This document shows, in pieces, positions 18,083 through 54,409 of a DNA stretch of 64,000 nucleotides. Positions within the stretch are counted from its first letter, which is position 1; every line of letters starts with the position of its first letter. The DNA is from Globodera rostochiensis (Eukaryota; Nematoda; Chromadorea; Rhabditida; Heteroderidae), in the NCBI GenBank assembly GCA_018350325.1, contig JAEVLN010000012.1:1385991-1449990 (forward strand), in the 5' to 3' direction. The position numbers and the translations under genes are program-made. Below the pieces are notes generated by a model. It was not told where the DNA came from. It ran no database searches and saw nothing but the letters and a program-made list of their open reading frames with translations.

Positions 18083-21000
18083 ATGGCAACAATGACCACA
18101 ATGGAGGGGTTCATCGACCTTTCGGCCATCACCAATCCGGTGCAGAAGGAAATATTGACCGACTTTGACCGCCGGAGAAAGGTAAATGTGGAATTTGTTC
18201 AAAAATGTGAGCTGATCGTTTTTTTAAAGGCGCGAAGTCTGACGTTGCCAACAGACGATGTGCAGGTCAAATTGATGTTGCGACGCTGCAATGAGCCGAT
18301 ATGTGAGTTTTTGTTGCATTTTACAAAAAAATAAAACAGCGGGGGCGTGTACAATAATAAAATAAAAAGATAAAAGGTCAATTTGGTCTTAATATGGAAA
18401 GCAAAAAAAAAAAGAAAAAAATAATCAGCCCGATACGGGGCTCGAACCCGTGACAACCAGATTAAGAGTCTGGTGCTCTACCGACTGAGCTAACCGGGCA
18501 CCTGTCTATGTGGGGCGATTCCTTAACCATGACAAAGACGATTAGAGGAGGGAAATAGAATGAATGGAAATAAAGAAGGTAGGAAGTATTCAAAAAACCC
18601 GTGTCCATAAACAAAGTTTTTATAATGGGGGTGGAGGGATTAGGGAGGCTCGGCTTTAGCGTAAATTTCTGTAATATTGTACAATACAAAGTACAAGATA
18701 GGGTTCGCATTTCTTTTTGTGAGATTTTCAATTGCGTCGTTGTTTTGTGCCAATGAGAAAGTATTTTTTTTTGTGGCGTTAAATGCCAATGTTTTTGTTT
18801 GAATGTCGTTCCAAACGTGCATTTTGTCTAAATTTGTAGTTTTATTTAAAAAGAGGGGTAACAAAACAATGTCTGTTTTTTTTGTTGCCAAAATGGGATT
18901 ATGCGAAAAAAACAAAGGCTTACAAAAACAAGAACTGCAGCGCGTTCACTTACATAAGGGAAAAATTGTGCAAAAAAGGGGAAAAAAGTGATAAGCCCGA
19001 TACGGGGCTCGAACCCGTGACAACCAGATTAAGAGTCTGGTGCTCTACCGACTGAGCTAACCGGGCGCCTGACTGCATGCCTAACAATTTGCATGATTAA
19101 CCGCTAGGCTTTGCCAATTTTTCTATGACACAATTAATGCTTGATGTGAATACATAAAAGCTTCATCATTTGTTTATTGCTGTTGCAGGTCTTTTCGGTG
19201 AGGACATTTTGGACCGACGCGAGCGACTGCGGGCGCTGTTGTCGCGCATGTCCGAGGATGAAATTCACGCAGTGCTGCACTTTGACGAGCGGGAACGAGC
19301 GGATGCACAGGTGGGGGGGGGGGGGGCGGGGTGGGGGGGGGGGGGGGCGGGGCAGTATTTTTGTAAACAAATTTTTGTTGTTTGGTTTTGGCATTATTTT
19401 TTTCTTCTGAAAATTATTTGTCTCTTTCTTCTGCTATAAATTTTGACGCATTTATTCCATTGTTTTCAAGTCTTCACTCAAAAATTTTGCACGCTTTTAT
19501 CCTCCCATTTTTTATTTAGGATTTTTTTTGAATGTTTTGACGGCTTTTAAATTTTTGTTTTTTGTTTTCCAGGACGATCAGTCCACCTGGTACCACCGGG
19601 GTCCAGGCGCGTTGCGCGACGCACGCGTCACTGTTGCGGACTGGAGTCTGGTGAAGGCCAAGGCGAGGTTGGAGCGCGCGCGACAGCACGCGCAACTTTC
19701 GCAGCAAGAAAAGGCGTTGATCAAGCAGGCAACTCATCGAAAGATTCAAACACTGCAAATCTACGGCACTCAGGCAGGCAGAGAGATTCCAATTTTATTC
19801 AACAAAAACAAATAGAATTTTTGGGTTTTTTTTTTGATAGTTTTTTTTTTCTCTTTTCCGATTCCCCGGAAATTTTCTGAACACATTGGGTTTTGGTTCC
19901 GAATGATTTTTTAATTTTTGAGCTGAAAAATATAGGTCTCCGGCACTCGGCCCACCGCATTCGTCGAGTTTTCGCCCGACTCGCGCCATCTGATCACGTC
20001 CAACTGGTCCGGCCAGGTCACGCTCTGGACAGTGCCCGAGTGTCGGCAGGAACTCAACTTGCAAGGCCACGCTTGCCAAGTTGGCTGTGCGGTGGGTTTT
20101 TTTAAAAATTTTCCCTTAATTTTTGTTTTTCAACATTTTTTTAAAGCGTTTTCATCCCGGTGCTTTTGTCAATGTTGACCCGTTGTTGTTGAACGTCGCC
20201 TCCTGTGACCACTCGGGCAACGTGTTGTTGTGGAATTTGGTGAACGGTGAGGCGCCGTTGGCACGACTGGAACGGCACGAAGACCGCGTGCCGAGGCTCA
20301 CCTTTCATCCCAACGGGCACTTTCTGGCAACCGCATGGTGGGGGAATTTTTTGGTTTTTGTCTTTAATTCTGTGCAAAAAGAAGTCTTGCTTTATTAATT
20401 GAAAAATAAAGAATTCCATGAATTTTATTTGGCATATTTACATTTTTTGCATAAAGTTTTGACTCCTCGTGGCGCCTCTTCGACCTTGAGACACTGCAGG
20501 AACTGCTCTACCAAGAGGGCCACAGCAAATCCGTCTTTGATCTCGACTTTCACGCCGACGGCTCTTTGCTTTTGACGGGGTTGGTTTATTCTTTCGTCAC
20601 AAATTTGTAAATAAATATTGTAAATTTTTAAAATATTTTAGTGAATTTCAAATTTTTTTTTTTGCATAATTTTCTGCCACACACACACACAGAGGCCTCG
20701 ACTGCTACGGGCGTGTGTGGGATTTGCGGACTGGACGATGCATTATGTTTTTGGAGGGGCATCAGAAGGGCATTCACACGGTGTGCTGGCATCAGAACGG
20801 CTTCCTGATGGTCACCGGCAGTGCGGACAACACGTGCAAGGCAAGCGCACGCGCCTGACTTGTTTTTGGGGGGGGGGGGGAGGAGGAATGGAGTTTTATT
20901 AGTAATTAGTAGCAATATGATCAGAATACCAACAACCAGATCACAACATTCCAACCGGTTTTTTGGTCACGAAACCCGAGGAGTTTGGGTGTCCTTCAAA

Positions 21001-47300: not shown

Positions 47301-47443
47301 TATTACTGTTTTAGAATCTAAATTCACATAAAAAAACAGACAGAATGCCGAGAAAATTAGACGAAAAAATGGAACCGGTTTTAAACCGTAAAAGCGTAGA
47401 ATGAATTAATTTCGTCCTTTTTGAAGCGTATTTGAATTAATTG
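44361..47443. other. Intergenic region between Raf and the M41 gene
   Basis: About 3 kb with no supported gene. It has long G runs (44071, 44641, 45180, 45717, 45889, 46374, 46934), C runs (45760, 46040-46060), a CTT/CGT tract near 45620 and AT-rich DNA. The left part is the likely Raf promoter. ORFs here are compositionally biased. Confidence 0.6.
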
Positions 47444-48407
47444 ATGACACGCAAACAACAACTTGCACTGCTACGCCATCACAGCAAGCGGCGCCAGTTT
47501 AATGGGCAAATGGAAGTGGCTCGGGGCGGTGTGTACAACACCGCCCGAGTCTCGTGCCATGAAATTGGCCATGCCACATGCCTGTGGTACCAGCAGCATG
47601 CTGGCGCATTTGTCCAGGTTTTTTTTAAAATGCTTTTATCTGAGTAGAGCAAATTGTTAAATAAAAGGCTTCTGTATCCCAAACCGGGTCGTTTAGTCGA
47701 AAAAAGCCTAACGAGCTTCCCGGTTTTAAAACCGGTTTTCTTGGAGTAAGCTCTCCGGGTTTAACCCCTCCCCCTTAAACCTAGCTGATTCTGCGTCGGT
47801 TTACTGAATAAAATGACCAAAAATGGACGAAAAGTAACGCGAAAAAAGCCACCGAAAAATTAAAGCGTTTCAAGCCAAACTTCAAAAATCCTTAAAACGA
47901 CGAGGCGTTGCCGGACTCGGAAACCGTTTATTGTATTCAATGCAGAATAAGCTTGCCTACATATTAACACCGCTATGTCTGGCAAAATATCTCTACTCCA
48001 AACCGGGTTAAACTGGAAAACCTTTTTTGCTTTCGACTAAACCGGTTTCGGGAATTTTTTTTCTCGCCGCTATGAAAGCTACAGACTGGGGCTTCCAACC
48101 TAGGTCACCATTGTGCCACGGCCAGGCCACTACGACGGCCTAACCACCAGCTCGTGGAAAAGGCAGATGTCGCGGGCCGAGATGCGCGCCTGCCTGGTCA
48201 TGCAGCTAGGCGGCCGTGCGGCCGAAGAAGTACTGTTCGGGCACAGTATTGGTCACGCTGGCGATGAGGAGGACTGGAGGAAGATGGCAATGTACGTTCC
48301 CCCCCCCCCTCCATTAAGTTAAAATTTTTCCAATTTTCAGAATGGTTGAAGCAAAGGCAGGTCAAAGCGAGCAGAGAAGTGAATGGGCAAAGGACGGACG
48401 AATTTGA
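47444..48407 (+). CDS. Stand-alone FtsH-type M41 peptidase domain
   Basis: Three exons (47444-47617, 48104-48291, 48341-48407) join in frame to a complete 142-residue product. It matches only the C-terminal protease half of FtsH/YME1/AFG3 proteins: VSCHEIGHATCLWY holds the zinc motif HExxH (H39, E40, H43), followed by VTIVPRPGHYDGLT, the mid-domain LGGRAAEEVLFG, and GDEEDWRKMA where the third zinc ligand Asp is expected. The AAA ATPase module and membrane segments that normally precede it are absent in the 3 kb upstream. After DWRKMA the protein stops within about 25 residues, cutting the last M41 helices. It could be a fragment of a duplicated protease gene kept by chance, or a small soluble metalloprotease-like protein. 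No internal stop or frameshift is seen. Confidence 0.65.
47676..48055. mobile_element. Candidate foldback element in the M41 intron
   Basis: Inverted ends: CCCAAACCGGGTCGTTTAGT, CGAAAAAAG on the left and CTTTCGACTAAACCGGTTTC, GGG on the right, with further CCGGTTTTAAAACCGG palindromes inside. It fills most of intron 1 of the M41 gene. No clear target duplication was found, so boundaries are approximate. Confidence 0.45.
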
Positions 48408-49297: not shown

Positions 49298-52201
49298 ATG
49301 CGAACAAAACAACTCGCGTCCAAAGCTTGCATAGGTGGAGGCCGAACCAAACAGTTGGCGCTCAAATACGTAGCAGGAGGAGGAGGAGGAGGAGGAGGAG
49401 GAAATTCTGCTGTATCGAAACGTCCTGTGGTCGCCACAAAGGCGACCGGTACGCCGGCCAACAAAAAAGGTACACAAAATGGCAGGGCCTTATTTATAGA
49501 AAAAATTTCGTGAGGGGGGGGGGAGGGGTGTATTTTCCGTTTTTATTGCATTTTTGTGAACCTCTGTGATCGGAATTTTGTAAATATATTTCTTTTAAAT
49601 AGTTTGTCTTAACCAACATGGCGAACAAGTTGATGATGATCATGAAGAGATGCCTTCCTTGGAAGTTGCGGCTCAAGAGTTCGTTTAATAAACAAAAAAG
49701 GAACTTTTTCGTATTTTAAAATCCAGGAATTCGGGGGGCAACATCGGCATTTTTGTTGTGGACGATCTGAGCGGTGGCAAAGAGCTGAACAAATTGCGCG
49801 TGATCAACACGTACAACGAGGAGGAAATGTGCCCATTTGAGTACATCACGAGCACGGAAAATGATGCCAAAAATGGGGTAAGAATCGCAACAATTTGTGA
49901 AGCAAATTTAGAAATGTTTTTTTGATGAAAATGTTGCGCGGTTATTCATTAAATTGTTTTCAGGAGGCCGTCCCGTGCAAAGATGCTGGTGGTGAACCGA
50001 CGTTGCGGTCCAACACGCGCTTTCAGGTACTAAATAAGAATATGTTGGACTTAGTGGGGGGCAAGGACGTGTCTAAAATTTTGGTGTGGGGGTGGGGTTA
50101 AATTCAAAAATGCCGATCTTTAGTGGGCGTGTTTTTTGGTGCATGTTTTCTTAAAGAATTTTTTGAAAGGAAGTTGTGGGTCAATTCTGCAAAGTTTCTA
50201 TCAACTTTTTAACGGACAAATGAGCGAATTTTTATTTTTAATTTGAGGAGGGGGTGGGGGGGGGAGAATTGGCGGTATTGAAAAAATCCAGAATTTTTTT
50301 GTGTTAAAAATAGCAGTGGTTTTTGAAGCTTTTTAGGGATGGGATGAGACGGCGGAGCCGATAGGTGTCGTCGGGGAAAAAAAATTTTTTTTTTGAAAAT
50401 TTTAACAATGTTTATTGGGCGGGCTGTTCTTTGAATGATAGTGCTTTTGGTGGTCGATTTGAATGAACAAAAGTTGAGCCACTTTTTTCGCTAATTTATA
50501 ATGCAACCTTCTCAAGGTGTTCTACAAGAATCCCGAATTGGAATGGTCCCTGCAAACGTTGGAGGACATCGAGGCGGGCATGCCGTTGTTCGAATACACC
50601 GGAGTGCTGAGCAAAGTTGAGCCCAAAGACCCGGACGACTACGTCGTCGGATTTGAGCATGTACAGTGCAAGAATTCAATAAAAACAAAAATTGTTTTTG
50701 TCCATAAGCCTAAAGATAGAATAAAAAAAACTTCGAATTGGACTCGTACCGGAGGGTTAGGCCCCCTCCTCCTTTTCCAAGAATTACTAAAATTAAAAAA
50801 AAAAACGATTTTTTTGGGGTCGAAAAAATGAAGCAATGAACACCAACAACAACAACACGTCCTTATTTTTGTTTTAATTTTTGACAGGACGGCCAGAAAT
50901 ATTTGGTGGACGCCTTTCGTAAAGGGAATTTGGCTCGCTTTGTCAACCATTCGTGTCGCCCAAATTGCCGCGCAGTTTTGTCGCACGTCGACGGCACTGA
51001 ACAACAACAACAAAAGCGCATTCCGTCCATTGTGATCTATACCCTGCGGCATATTTATGCCTGCGAAGAATTGGTCATGGATTATGGTAGGGCCCTTTTT
51101 GTTGGACAAATGCACAAAATTTCTGCCGATTTTTCATTTTTTGTTTGTTTTGGCTAGGCTAACCACCAACCAAGGGAGGAGCCAGGAATTTTTTTCGGGG
51201 GGGGGGGGATCCAAAATATTTTTTTGCTGTTTATTGCATTTTTGTTAAGCAATTTTTGCGAAAAAAAAGTTGGATATCGGACACGGACGTTTGAGTGTGG
51301 GACGTTTGAGTGTGGCAAAGTTTGAAAGCCTATAACTTTTTTCAAACTTAACTAAATCAGTTATGCATGGTATTTCCTGAAAGCCCTAAGTCTTTAGAGT
51401 TTACATTTAAAAAAAAAGCTAAGCGATTCGAAACTTTTCAAAAAAGTTATAACCGTACAAACAAAAAAAGTTCGGGTTTTCCGGGCTAATTTTTTTCATA
51501 TGGCTATAACTTTTTTGAAAAGTTTCGAATCGCTTAGCTTTTTTTTTAAATGTAAACTCTAAAGACTTAGGGCTTTCAGGAAATACCATGCACAACTGAT
51601 TTAGTTAAGTTTGAAAAAAGTTATAGTCTTTCAAACTTTGCCACACTCAAACGTCCCACACTCAAACGTCCCGCACCCGTTGGATATTACTTTAAAATTT
51701 AAAAAAAAAATTACGAATTTTTTAAATCAAAGAGCCTTCCCCCCTATGGTTTTTTCAAATTTTTTCTCCGGCCCCTAAATATGTACGTGGGTGCCTGCCT
51801 GCTGCTGCAATTTTACCCCTCAAATTTTAGGCGAAGGCTGGTGGCTTGCCAAAGCGGACGAGTTTTGTTGCCAATGCGGTGGCGAACAATGCAAATACGA
51901 CGAGGATTGGTGTGCCGAAAATGCACGTGCCGCCTCCATTCGTGGTGGACGGCTGCGACAGACGGCCTGCAAATCGACCGGAGGGCGTGCGCCACGCGTG
52001 CAGACGGCGACGAAAGCAGCCTATCGTCCGCCGCCCGTGGCACACATAAATGCGAGCCCGTCGATTGGTCCGTGGCCCGGCATGGGCAAAAAGTTGAGCG
52101 AAAGTCAACTGGCACTTCTGATAGACATGGAGGACGACGATGACGATGACGACGACGAAGAGGAGGAGGAAGTGGAAGAAGATTCGAAAGCGGAAGAATG
52201 A
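49298..52201 (+). CDS. SET-domain protein with two histone H3-tail-like segments
   Basis: Seven exons (49298-49469, 49603-49678, 49727-49877, 49964-50026, 50517-50660, 50888-51086, 51831-52201) sum to 392 codons, 391 residues. Residues 2-26 resemble the H3 tail in register (RTKQLASK, then TKQLALK), then a Gly run and ATKA. The middle is a SUV39/G9a-type SET domain: CPFEYITSTEND, LFEYTGVLS, YVVGFEH, the AdoMet/substrate motifs ARFVNHSCRPN and ELVMDYG, and post-SET CQCGGEQC. The GxG motif expected before TLEDI reads EWS, and the pre-SET zinc cluster is nearly missing. Residues 311-334 are again H3-like (QTACKSTGGRAPR, VQTATKAA). The tail is a 25-residue Asp/Glu run. Family knowledge suggests H3K9 methylation, but the lost GxG makes activity uncertain. 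Neighbours give no functional clue. A 400-bp foldback lies in the last intron. Confidence 0.88.
51280..51679. mobile_element. 400-bp foldback MITE in the SET-gene intron
   Basis: Almost the whole element is one inverted repeat. Left-arm blocks GACGTTTGAGTGTGG, TGAAAGCCCTAAGTCTTTAG and GCTAAGCGATTCGAAACTTT recur in inverse order on the right; arms are about 185 bp with few mismatches and a short loop near 51475. Identical TTGGATAT flanks both ends (51272-51279 and 51680-51687; 9 bp if one shared G is counted). No coding capacity. Transcription of the SET gene would place a long hairpin in its pre-mRNA. Confidence 0.88.
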
Positions 52202-53352
52202 GGAGGAGGCGATGGTGGAAGAAGGGGATGGCTTTTTAACATGTTCAATGGATTGGACGGAAGAATAATTCTTCACTTTCTGTTTCGTATGTAAACGACC
52301 GCTTGTTTCTCATCCTTTCAATTTTTTCAAGTTTCTGTTTTTTTACAAATAAAGCTCACTGCCAGAATTCAGAAGAACACATTGAATTTAGTAAATTCTT
52401 TTTTGTTGTTCCAATAATTTAATTTGTAAGTGTTTTGAGCGGGGCTGGGGTTTGGGCCTGGAACGAGCAAGTTTTATGCCAAGAGAATTATGAAAAGCTC
52501 ACAGGTTTTTTGGCACTTGCCCTGTATAAATTTTTTGGAACGCTTTATGCTGATTGGTTTTTAGTGAGTGACCGGTTGGGATTTTGACGTGTTTCCCGTT
52601 CGGCTACTTTTTGTAATCCTGTTGGTCTCGTGTCCCGGTTCAATTCCCGGACCTAACAAATGTTATTTTGATTACGAATTTGAAATTTGTACATAGAAAA
52701 CATTTCGCCATAAAATTTCATCAGCGAAGAAACAAAAAATGAATTTCATAGAAATGCAGCAAATTTTCTTTGAAATTGTGTAGTAAAATTTAGAACCGTT
52801 TTTTGAAAATTCTGGACCCGGATTTTAGGGATGTGCCTGGACCTGATTTCCTGGACAAAAAATCCAGGTCTAGGGTTGCAGACGCCTGGATCCCCAGGCC
52901 TGGGCCTGGATTTTTTCAAAAACTAGTTTTTTTTAATTAAATACCAGATATGACTTGTAGAGACCAATGCTTGCATTTTCCCATTTTGACAAAAGTAGAT
53001 TCTTAGGAGTGCATTTTTGGGGTTTATTTTGCTTAAAGAATTTTTTCAAAAGTTGTAAGAATACTAAAAACTAGTGCTCGGCACGGTTCGGTATTTACGA
53101 ATATATATGTATGTACATCGTACAAAAACCTGAAAATTTCGAGTTTTTCATCTAAAACAACCGAGCTTGTGAATCCGTATTTTTCGATCGAGAATCTCGA
53201 AAAATCATCTCGATCGTCCTCTACTCTAAATGAGATTTTGTTGTTGTCAAATGTTGAAGTAGGGAGGATTGTGATTAGCTTAAGTAATTGTTTAACGCTA
53301 TTTTATTAAGATAATCATACATTTTTTGAATAAACATTTCAACACCGACAAA
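52202..53352. other. Spacer between SET gene and UBE2F
   Basis: The SET 3' UTR has AATAAA at about 52349. A tRNA-like stretch at 52570-52660 (B-box-like GGTTCAATTCC) does not fold well. The CCTGGACCTG/CCAGGCCTGG motif family is dense at 52830-52915, and a TCTCGATCGAGA fragment is at 53175-53225. No gene is supported. Confidence 0.55.
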
Positions 53353-54409
53353 ATGTTCAACTTGCAAGATCGTGTCGAAGGAAGAGATGCCGACCGTGAG
53401 CATCGCGCTAAGCGCATTACCATCCGGGACAAATTGCTCAGTCAAGGTAACCAACCAATGATTAAGGAAAAAAGAATTTTGTTTTGTTTTTACATTAATC
53501 AAGGGCGTGCCAAATGTCTTATTGTTAGCCTAACTTCCTTTCTGCAAGTCTGAAAAAGATTCAGAAATCAATTTGATTTGACAGATTCAGCCACGGGGAA
53601 GGAAGATCCAAAAAATTCCAGTCTTATAGTAACTCCGCTTTAATCACATCATTTTCCAAAAAAAAAGGAGTTTTTCTTATTGTTAGTTCGATCGAATTGG
53701 GACGTATGTATGTGTACACAGTGTAAAAAGTGGTAGAATTTTTTATTCCAATTTTAGAAAGCAAAGAATTGGAGCAGCATTTGCGCGATTTGCCTACGTG
53801 CAAATTGCTCTTCCCCTCGACGTCGGCCCTTCACGAAATGGAGCTGACGGTGAAGCCGAACACGGGCTGCTACAAGGGCGGCGTGTTCAAATTCAAAATC
53901 ACCGTCCCGCCGGACTACAACAATGTGGTGAGTTTTTTGTTGGGTTTTTCTTCTTTTGACTGAAGAAATAAAGTTTTTGTTAAGCCTCCAATTGTGAAGT
54001 GCCTGACCCGCGTTTGGCATCCGAACATCACCGAAGACGGCAAAATTTGCCTTAGTTTGCTAAGACAAAACTCGCTGGATGGATACGGTGCGAGTCTTTT
54101 TCTTTTTTTTTTGCAAATTTTTCTCGTTTTTTTTTTTGTGAAACAAAAGGTTTTCAGGTTGGATGCCAACGCGGCACATTCATGACGTCATTCTTGGCCT
54201 GGACCAATTGTTCACTGATCTCATCGACTTTGACGACCCGCTCAATGCAGAGGCTGCAGAATTATGGCGAACCAACAAAGTGAGCATGGCATTTTCAAAT
54301 TCCACATTCAGAGTTGAATTTGCTTTCACCACTCACTTATAAATATGTTCAGGAAGCGTTTGCTAAGAAGGTCAAGGAGTACATTTCAAAGTACTGCCCC
54401 AAAAACTGA
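53353..54409 (+). CDS. NEDD8-conjugating enzyme UBE2F
   Basis: Five exons (53353-53446, 53758-53927, 53985-54087, 54158-54279, 54353-54409) give 181 residues. The N-terminal extension [14 protein letters not shown] is followed by RITIRDKLL, matching the RRVSVRDKLL start of human UBE2F. The UBC fold has [30 protein letters not shown] with the catalytic Cys, [24 protein letters not shown] and a C-terminal helix ending YCPKN. UBE2F carries NEDD8 from the E1 (UBA3-NAE1) to cullin-5-type ligases through its N-terminal extension. The choice of UBE2F over UBE2M rests on the RDKLL N-terminus and the FDDPLN block; length equals the family. AATAAA lies at about 54480. Confidence 0.9.

Follow-up and report, generated by a model that had tools for sequence, protein, structure and literature searches.

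Copies of the histone H3 tail in the flexible ends of a G9a-like SET-domain protein of cyst nematodes, putative self-substrates

The methyltransferases G9a/EHMT2 and GLP/EHMT1 carry an H3-like site in their own chain and methylate it (K185, K205), and in G9a this histone mimic is the short motif ARKT. Here we describe a SET-domain gene of Globodera rostochiensis that lies at 49298–52201 of the 64-kb window, by which we mean the whole stretch of 64,000 nucleotides that was analyzed (contig JAEVLN010000012.1, positions 1,385,991–1,449,990, forward strand). Its 391-residue product, GrosA, bears two copies of the H3 tail, one near each end. As in G9a/GLP, the enzyme and the H3-like site share one chain, and the SET core is nearest G9a in the Protein Data Bank (PDB) by both sequence and fold; however, GrosA has no ankyrin repeats, its pre-SET cysteines are lost, and its copies span about 25 residues and lack R8, whereas the G9a mimic has the required arginine. 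Judged from the sequence, the element is a tail-length histone mimic that probably acts as a self-substrate or pseudosubstrate at the equivalents of K9 and K23. Our preferred reading, to which we give a probability of roughly 0.45, is that GrosA is a SET methyltransferase of nematodes, with G9a/GLP as its nearest solved structures and with imitations of the H3 tail in its flexible ends that are most likely self-methylated ligands of the K9/K23 type. Inside a methyltransferase, histone mimicry is known as a very short motif of G9a; here it extends over about 25 residues of the modifiable H3 tail, a natural experiment on which of these residues matter for writers and readers of K9 and K23.

Other systems share single features with this one. 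With PAF15/DPPA3 and the UHRF1 PHD finger, PAF15 is a non-histone protein that uses an H3-like terminus, of a few residues only; PAF15 and DPPA3 differ from GrosA in that they are not methyltransferases. The autoregulatory loop of Clr4/SUV39 is not known to copy the H3 tail. What it shares with our proposal is self-methylation that switches an H3K9 methyltransferase (PMC10135481, PMC12407891). Intramolecular histone mimicry that reduces histone binding is described for the BAZ2B linker, but there lysine-rich stretches act on a PHD finger and no methyltransferase SET domain is involved (PMC5663869). Among nematode SET proteins, C. elegans SET-32 has a target, H3K23, whose QLATKA context the mimics resemble (PMC7431132); SET-32 has been grouped with the SET-6 family (PMC5934874), and the C. 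briggsae record in our set, P0008, is not among the proteins that bear H3-like modules. The SET-PPN candidate methyltransferases of plant-parasitic nematodes, published as groups Cons07/12/18, are likewise SET proteins; reports of them come from Globodera and Meloidogyne only, with no function described (PMC5934874), and no published accession was matched to the GrosA family. The main text of that 2018 note contains neither "mimic" nor "histone H3." Among the papers listed for the open-access literature, which excludes most subscription papers, and as judged from titles and the starts of abstracts, several deal with the short G9a mimic and none reports H3 copies of tail length within a SET protein. 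In the phylum to which this system belongs, H3K23me3 has been found to be maintained across generations (C. elegans; PMC7431132).

The C-terminal copy is encoded in exon 7 (51831–52201; the gene and all its features are on the plus strand), which also specifies the post-SET motif CQCGGEQC, an acidic tail (52133–52198, D or E at 18 of 22 residues) and the stop codon. An earlier note, made from the sequence alone, had proposed an H3-tail mimic at 51956–52027, which encodes RQTACKSTGGRAPRVQTATKAAYR; the best ungapped H3 match runs from 51950 to 52036 (RLRQTACKSTGGRAPRVQTATKAAYRPPP, BLOSUM62 score 90). On recomputation, residues 312–332 are identical to H3 residues 5–25 at 17 of 21 positions without gaps, and each substitution that the note listed was found again: the equivalents of K9 (K316, 51971–51973) and K23 (K330, 52013–52015) are retained, while R replaces K4, K14 and K27, C replaces R8 and V replaces K18. 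Its assumption that the last exon is joined in frame to the SET exons also stands. The gene consists of seven exons with GT-AG borders throughout, the exon 2 splice donor (GTTCGT) gives an in-frame join to exon 3, and the joined translation is identical to the 391-residue UniRef protein A0A914IBY1 (P0001 in our set). Since a diverged paralogue on contig C67, GrosB, has the same exon structure, exon 7 belongs with the SET exons.

Could the likeness be a chance product of basic, low-complexity tails? For the C-terminal copy this is already refuted, as none of 5,000 shuffles of the segment reaches its score (maximum 50). The best of 1,000 shuffles of the whole protein scores 58, and the runners-up in all six frames of the window are exon 1 of this gene, which scores 51, and a match that scores 45. 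Compared with PDB sequences, the copy matches histone H3 at 2.5e-6, and a search of the 92.6-Mb assembly with H3 residues 1–45 found at least five places, namely four H3 tail exons (98–100% identity) and exon 7.

The earlier note had located the mimic at the C terminus; that copy is real, but H3 likeness is not confined to it. Exon 1 (49298–49469) contains the start codon, an H3-like segment, a glycine run and the sequence ending in ANKK, and shares 89% amino acid identity with its counterpart in GrosB. It opens with MRTKQLASKACIGGGRTKQLALKYV, which aligns to H3 at offset zero, and the N-terminal mimic (MRTKQLASKACIGGGRTKQLALKYVA, 49298–49375) is in H3 register from residue 1, keeping R2, T3, K4, Q5, A7, K9, G13, K18, Q19, L20, A21 and K23. 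Over 26 residues its score is 46, which none of 5,000 shuffles reaches. A relative from Heterodera trifolii, P0003 (niasHT_029776, a five-sequence cluster), starts with MRLKQLACKSTGGRAPRKQTAYKCAGG and is a closer H3 copy than the GrosA N terminus: at offset zero it scores 78 (reached by 0 of 5,000 shuffles), and it matches H3 structures in the PDB from 7e-5. P0003 thus provides decisive support for the N-terminal H3 likeness of GrosA. When records starting with methionine were scored at offset zero, P0003 reached 76 and P0001 43, whereas the 132 others, among them the family members P0002, P0004–P0006 and P0034–P0035, averaged −15.5, with 14 as their highest score. The N-terminal match occurs in exact register in three proteins. 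What speaks for chance is that 3 of 5,000 shuffles reach the score of the GrosB N terminus taken alone and that the GrosA N-terminal segment alone has no PDB match up to an E value of 10. Nevertheless, given the shuffles and the scores of the other N termini, the probability that chance explains the family is very nearly negligible, and the C-terminal copy and the Heterodera N-terminal copy are real H3 likenesses.

Among the records compared, few proteins have the copies. We counted the motif Q[TLIV]A.[KR] across 143 returned records (39,355 residues), most of which are SET proteins owing to the design of the search. Two or more motifs occur only in P0001 (at residues 5, 19, 312 and 326), P0003 (5 and 19) and P0035 (267, 281, 297 and 315), and in each set the first pair is 14 residues apart, the spacing of Q5 and Q19 in H3. 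Single motifs are present in P0002, P0007 and two outside records (P0029 and P0044), and P0004, P0005, P0006 and P0034 have none. P0035, a 365-residue protein found by alignment search, is encoded by an uninterrupted frame of 365 codons on a 1122-base contig, which suggests that the contig is a transcript. Past its post-SET motif it reads RMRQTATKC...PLRQLATKC, followed by PQTARRTGT, PQIASRTGT and an acidic end. None of 20,000 shuffles of this tail reaches its four Q-x-A-x-[KR] modules (maximum 2). The ungapped H3 match is at residues 264–285, where K4 reads R, K14 reads V and K18 reads R and K9 and K23 are kept, as in the C-terminal copy of GrosA. A profile built from the four cyst-nematode copies detects the whole P0035 protein at an E value of 8e-5, whereas the best-scoring of 1001 shuffled decoys has 0.29. 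Separately, P0007 of Globodera pallida, named BTB/POZ domain-containing protein 3, holds pieces of exons 1–3 of the SET gene, including RTKQLALKYVAGGGG, and is probably a fused gene model.

Five intact copies could be compared: the C- and N-terminal copies of GrosA, the N-terminal copies of GrosB and P0003, and that of P0035. Excluded were scrambled C-terminal copies in GrosB and P0002, the P0007 fragment and the last two P0035 modules; as the N termini of GrosA and GrosB are recent paralogues, the number of independent lineages is below five. R2, A7, K9, A21 and K23 are present in all five copies, Q5, Q19 and G13 in four, and K4 and K18 in three, and none has A1, K14, R26 or K27. The earlier note's statement that the other modifiable lysines had been removed applies to the C-terminal copies (GrosA and P0035), which retain no H3 lysines other than K9 and K23, but not to the N-terminal copies of GrosA and the Heterodera relative, which keep K4 and K18. 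These two lysines, together with a position at the true N terminus as in H3, would suit a decoy acting in trans on chromatin readers, erasers or other H3 writers, with the SET domain incidental. However, A1 of H3, which many PHD fingers read, is methionine in the N-terminal copies, the C-terminal copies are internal, and among the 143 records two or more modules are confined to the SET proteins of a single clade; we regard such a decoy as improbable.

The Globodera C-terminal copy and the Heterodera N-terminal copy have four non-H3 residues in common (L3, C8, R14 and T20). Since these are unlikely to be expected of separate inventions, both copies probably derive from one ancestral H3-like segment inside the family. 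A remnant of an ancient fusion or of convergent evolution that now drifts without function would be consistent with several features of the family: the C-terminal copy of the paralogue is scrambled, P0034 has no mimic, and the location of the copy differs between Globodera and Heterodera. The earlier note had named, as counting against its proposal, orthologues without the segment together with shuffles of similar score. The first applies in part: P0003 lacks a C-terminal H3 copy and has the N-terminal one, P0034 has neither, and the GrosB C-terminal copy is disrupted; the shuffles, by contrast, favor the note. We also looked for DNA-level descent of the copies from host H3 genes, and codon identity retained no trace of it. 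With the four H3 loci, the C-terminal copy has 8, 8, 6 and 2 of 19 same-residue codons in common (6.2–7.3 expected) and the N-terminal copy 3, 3, 4 and 3 of 12 (4.5–5.0 expected), so that a relic gains a further point from identity not above expectation. Set against this, five copies from three lineages all have R2, A7, K9, A21 and K23, and P0035 repeats the spacing of 14 residues; a functionless relic seems to us about as improbable as the decoy, if not a shade more so. Between GrosA and GrosB, the ratio of nonsynonymous to synonymous divergence (Ka/Ks) is 0.49 for the whole gene. The N-terminal mimic differs by only 4 changes, with a ratio of about 1 that is too few to be informative, and the region of the C-terminal mimic has the highest Ka and Ks among the regions compared.

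The core of the enzyme is that of a SET methyltransferase. SET is the only Pfam family found in the joined protein up to an E value of 1, with neither ankyrin repeats nor a histone fold behind the H3-like tail. Exon 2 (49603–49678) is phase-consistent, and exon 3 (49727–49877), which was aligned with relatives, encodes the stretch ahead of the SET domain. Exon 4 (49964–50026) corresponds to the site of pre-SET-like cysteines in relatives and may be a remnant of it, as these cysteines are mostly lost in clade 1 and Pfam does not detect Pre-SET in GrosA; in P0035 a cysteine-rich stretch is visible there by eye, for which Pfam Pre-SET is not called. Exons 5 (50517–50660, with EYTG) and 6 (50888–51086, with NHSCRPN and EEL..DYG) encode the SET core (Pfam SET, 2.6e-18). 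EY.G, NHSC.PN and DYG are present along with a post-SET CxCx4C, a core common to many SET families, and across 38 aligned sequences Y181, H223, C225, N228 and Y268 are invariant and C282, C284 and C289 nearly so. The closest PDB sequence to the SET core is EHMT2/G9a (1.2e-22), ahead of MLL (8.5e-13) and SUV39H2 (3e-9), and the core of P0035 is also nearest EHMT2/G9a (7.2e-27). The predicted GrosA fold has as its top match G9a with a bound H3K9M peptide (2.3e-13, 161 aligned columns). We do not claim EHMT membership; G9a/GLP are nearest among solved structures. In a midpoint-rooted tree of 141 columns, P0035 groups with the cyst-nematode family (support 97) as outgroup to it, the cyst-nematode group itself has support 93, and the nearest outside branch (94) is P0008 of C. 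briggsae. By eye there is no hydrophobic stretch at the N terminus of GrosA, a point on which no signal-peptide program was run, and we assume an ordinary nuclear enzyme.

What might the copies do? The copies, their register and their distribution in the family can be seen directly, and from them we infer self-methylation, reader recruitment and autoinhibition as candidate functions. Given a G9a-like enzyme whose tails have K9 and K23 as their constant lysines, the simplest reading is that it writes on itself. In this proposal, the copies would bind in the K9/K23-type substrate groove of the enzyme itself, either in cis or from one molecule to another, and their K9- and/or K23-like lysine would most likely be methylated, leading us to predict self-methylation at K316 and K330. 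There is a rational basis for an autosubstrate, because human GLP/G9a methylate H3K9, K18 and K23 (PMC9677696) and C. elegans SET-32 methylates H3K23 (PMC7431132). Once methylated, the copies could form a soluble binding site for readers of H3K9me or H3K23me such as HP1 proteins, as with the shorter G9a mimic; K9me3 and K23me3 both bind HP1 proteins in vitro (PMC7431132). Recruitment of readers is the better-supported analogue, since methylated G9a recruits HP1-gamma and no effect on G9a activity has been found (PMC8541646).

The loss of R8 complicates a plain G9a-type K9 autosubstrate, which is not assured, because R8 is essential for G9a (PMC8541646) and absent from all five copies. With R8 replaced, the K23-like context (A-T-K) would be the likelier site of methylation. 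The same loss would also fit a pseudosubstrate, a bound but poorly methylated ligand: the tails would fill the SET groove unmethylated and keep the enzyme inactive until displaced by H3, by modification or by the acidic C terminus. Two P0035 modules have R in place of the target K (QTARR and QIASR), and the histone-like BAZ2B linker can reduce histone binding in cis (PMC5663869). However, a pseudosubstrate would have no need of K9 and K23, both retained in all five intact copies, and the AlphaFold model has no docked tail. We therefore consider a pseudosubstrate unlikely, yet a serious contender.

A number of observations weigh against self-methylation of a G9a-type enzyme. R8 is missing from every intact copy, so that the ARK[S/T] consensus of G9a-type mimics, with R before K, does not occur, and a review reports no evidence that automethylation alters G9a activity (PMC8541646). 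GrosA is without the pre-SET cysteines and has EWS in place of the customary GWG motif; as judged from these residues, catalytic activity is not assured. The family stands apart from P0075, the sole ankyrin-SET record (on a long branch) in a tree without human G9a. In the AlphaFold model, which shows no docking of the mimics into the protein's own SET groove, the predicted confidence (pLDDT) is below 50 at residues 1–103 and 308–333, against a mean of 59.7 for the whole protein, and disorder is predicted for the mimics. Regarding the N-terminal copy, the score of 51 for the longer GrosA alignment is reached by 1 of 1,000 whole-protein shuffles, to which the missing PDB match of that segment is to be added. 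The profile match to P0035 consists of two weak pieces (E values 0.024 and 0.72), the first of them shifted from the ungapped H3 register. The first module of the C-terminal copy is scrambled in GrosB (QATCCK-G) and in G. pallida P0002 (QAACCE-G). The K9-equivalent residue of these scrambled copies depends on the alignment, and if both are included K9 is not constant and K23 is; by eye, both keep K23 and A21. Finally, P0034, an H. trifolii protein sister to P0003 (support 100), has no H3-like segment in its 196-residue record, which lacks the post-SET and is possibly partial.

Three further relatives from a sister clade, P0004 (contig C56, L019:4355-5649), P0005 and P0006, have the same SET domain and end in long tandem repeats rich in A-x-K-S; P0004 has 28 A-x-K-S units and 33 of its 35 lysines are in A-x-K. 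We considered these arrays as H3 mimics and rejected them: of 500 shuffles, 35, 39 and 47 do at least as well as the three tails (scores 35, 37 and 37), and the reversed tails score nearly as high (33, 36 and 36). Each A-x-K-S unit is a potential methylation site by its sequence, and Pfam gives a sub-threshold match to the histone H1-like family HC2. An upstream open frame starting MRTK in the C56 paralogue was dropped, as annotated relatives start further downstream. It is conceivable, if decidedly doubtful, that a nematode clade evolved methyltransferases with built-in H3 tails dedicated to use as self-substrate, that copies moved between the ends of the protein and that long A-x-K-S arrays took the place of the tail in the sister clade, making the enzyme a multivalent scaffold on which methyl-lysine readers could assemble without a nucleosome.

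Intron 6 of the GrosA gene contains a non-coding foldback element (51285–51671) with two inverted arms of 191 nt that are 94% complementary. No such element is seen in the corresponding intron of the C67 paralogue, and DNA upstream of that paralogue is about 74% similar to part of the element. Upstream of the SET gene, at 47440–48300, fragments resembling an FtsH/M41-type protease (HEIGHA, ...RAAEEVLFG) were recognized by eye and possibly represent a partial gene, and downstream on the same strand, at 53346–54400, are open frames that by eye resemble a UBE2F/UBC12-like ubiquitin-conjugating enzyme. On its minus strand the window also contains two genes for tRNA-Lys(CTT) (18427–18499 and 18994–19066; Rfam score 69.9 each), with starts 567 bases apart.

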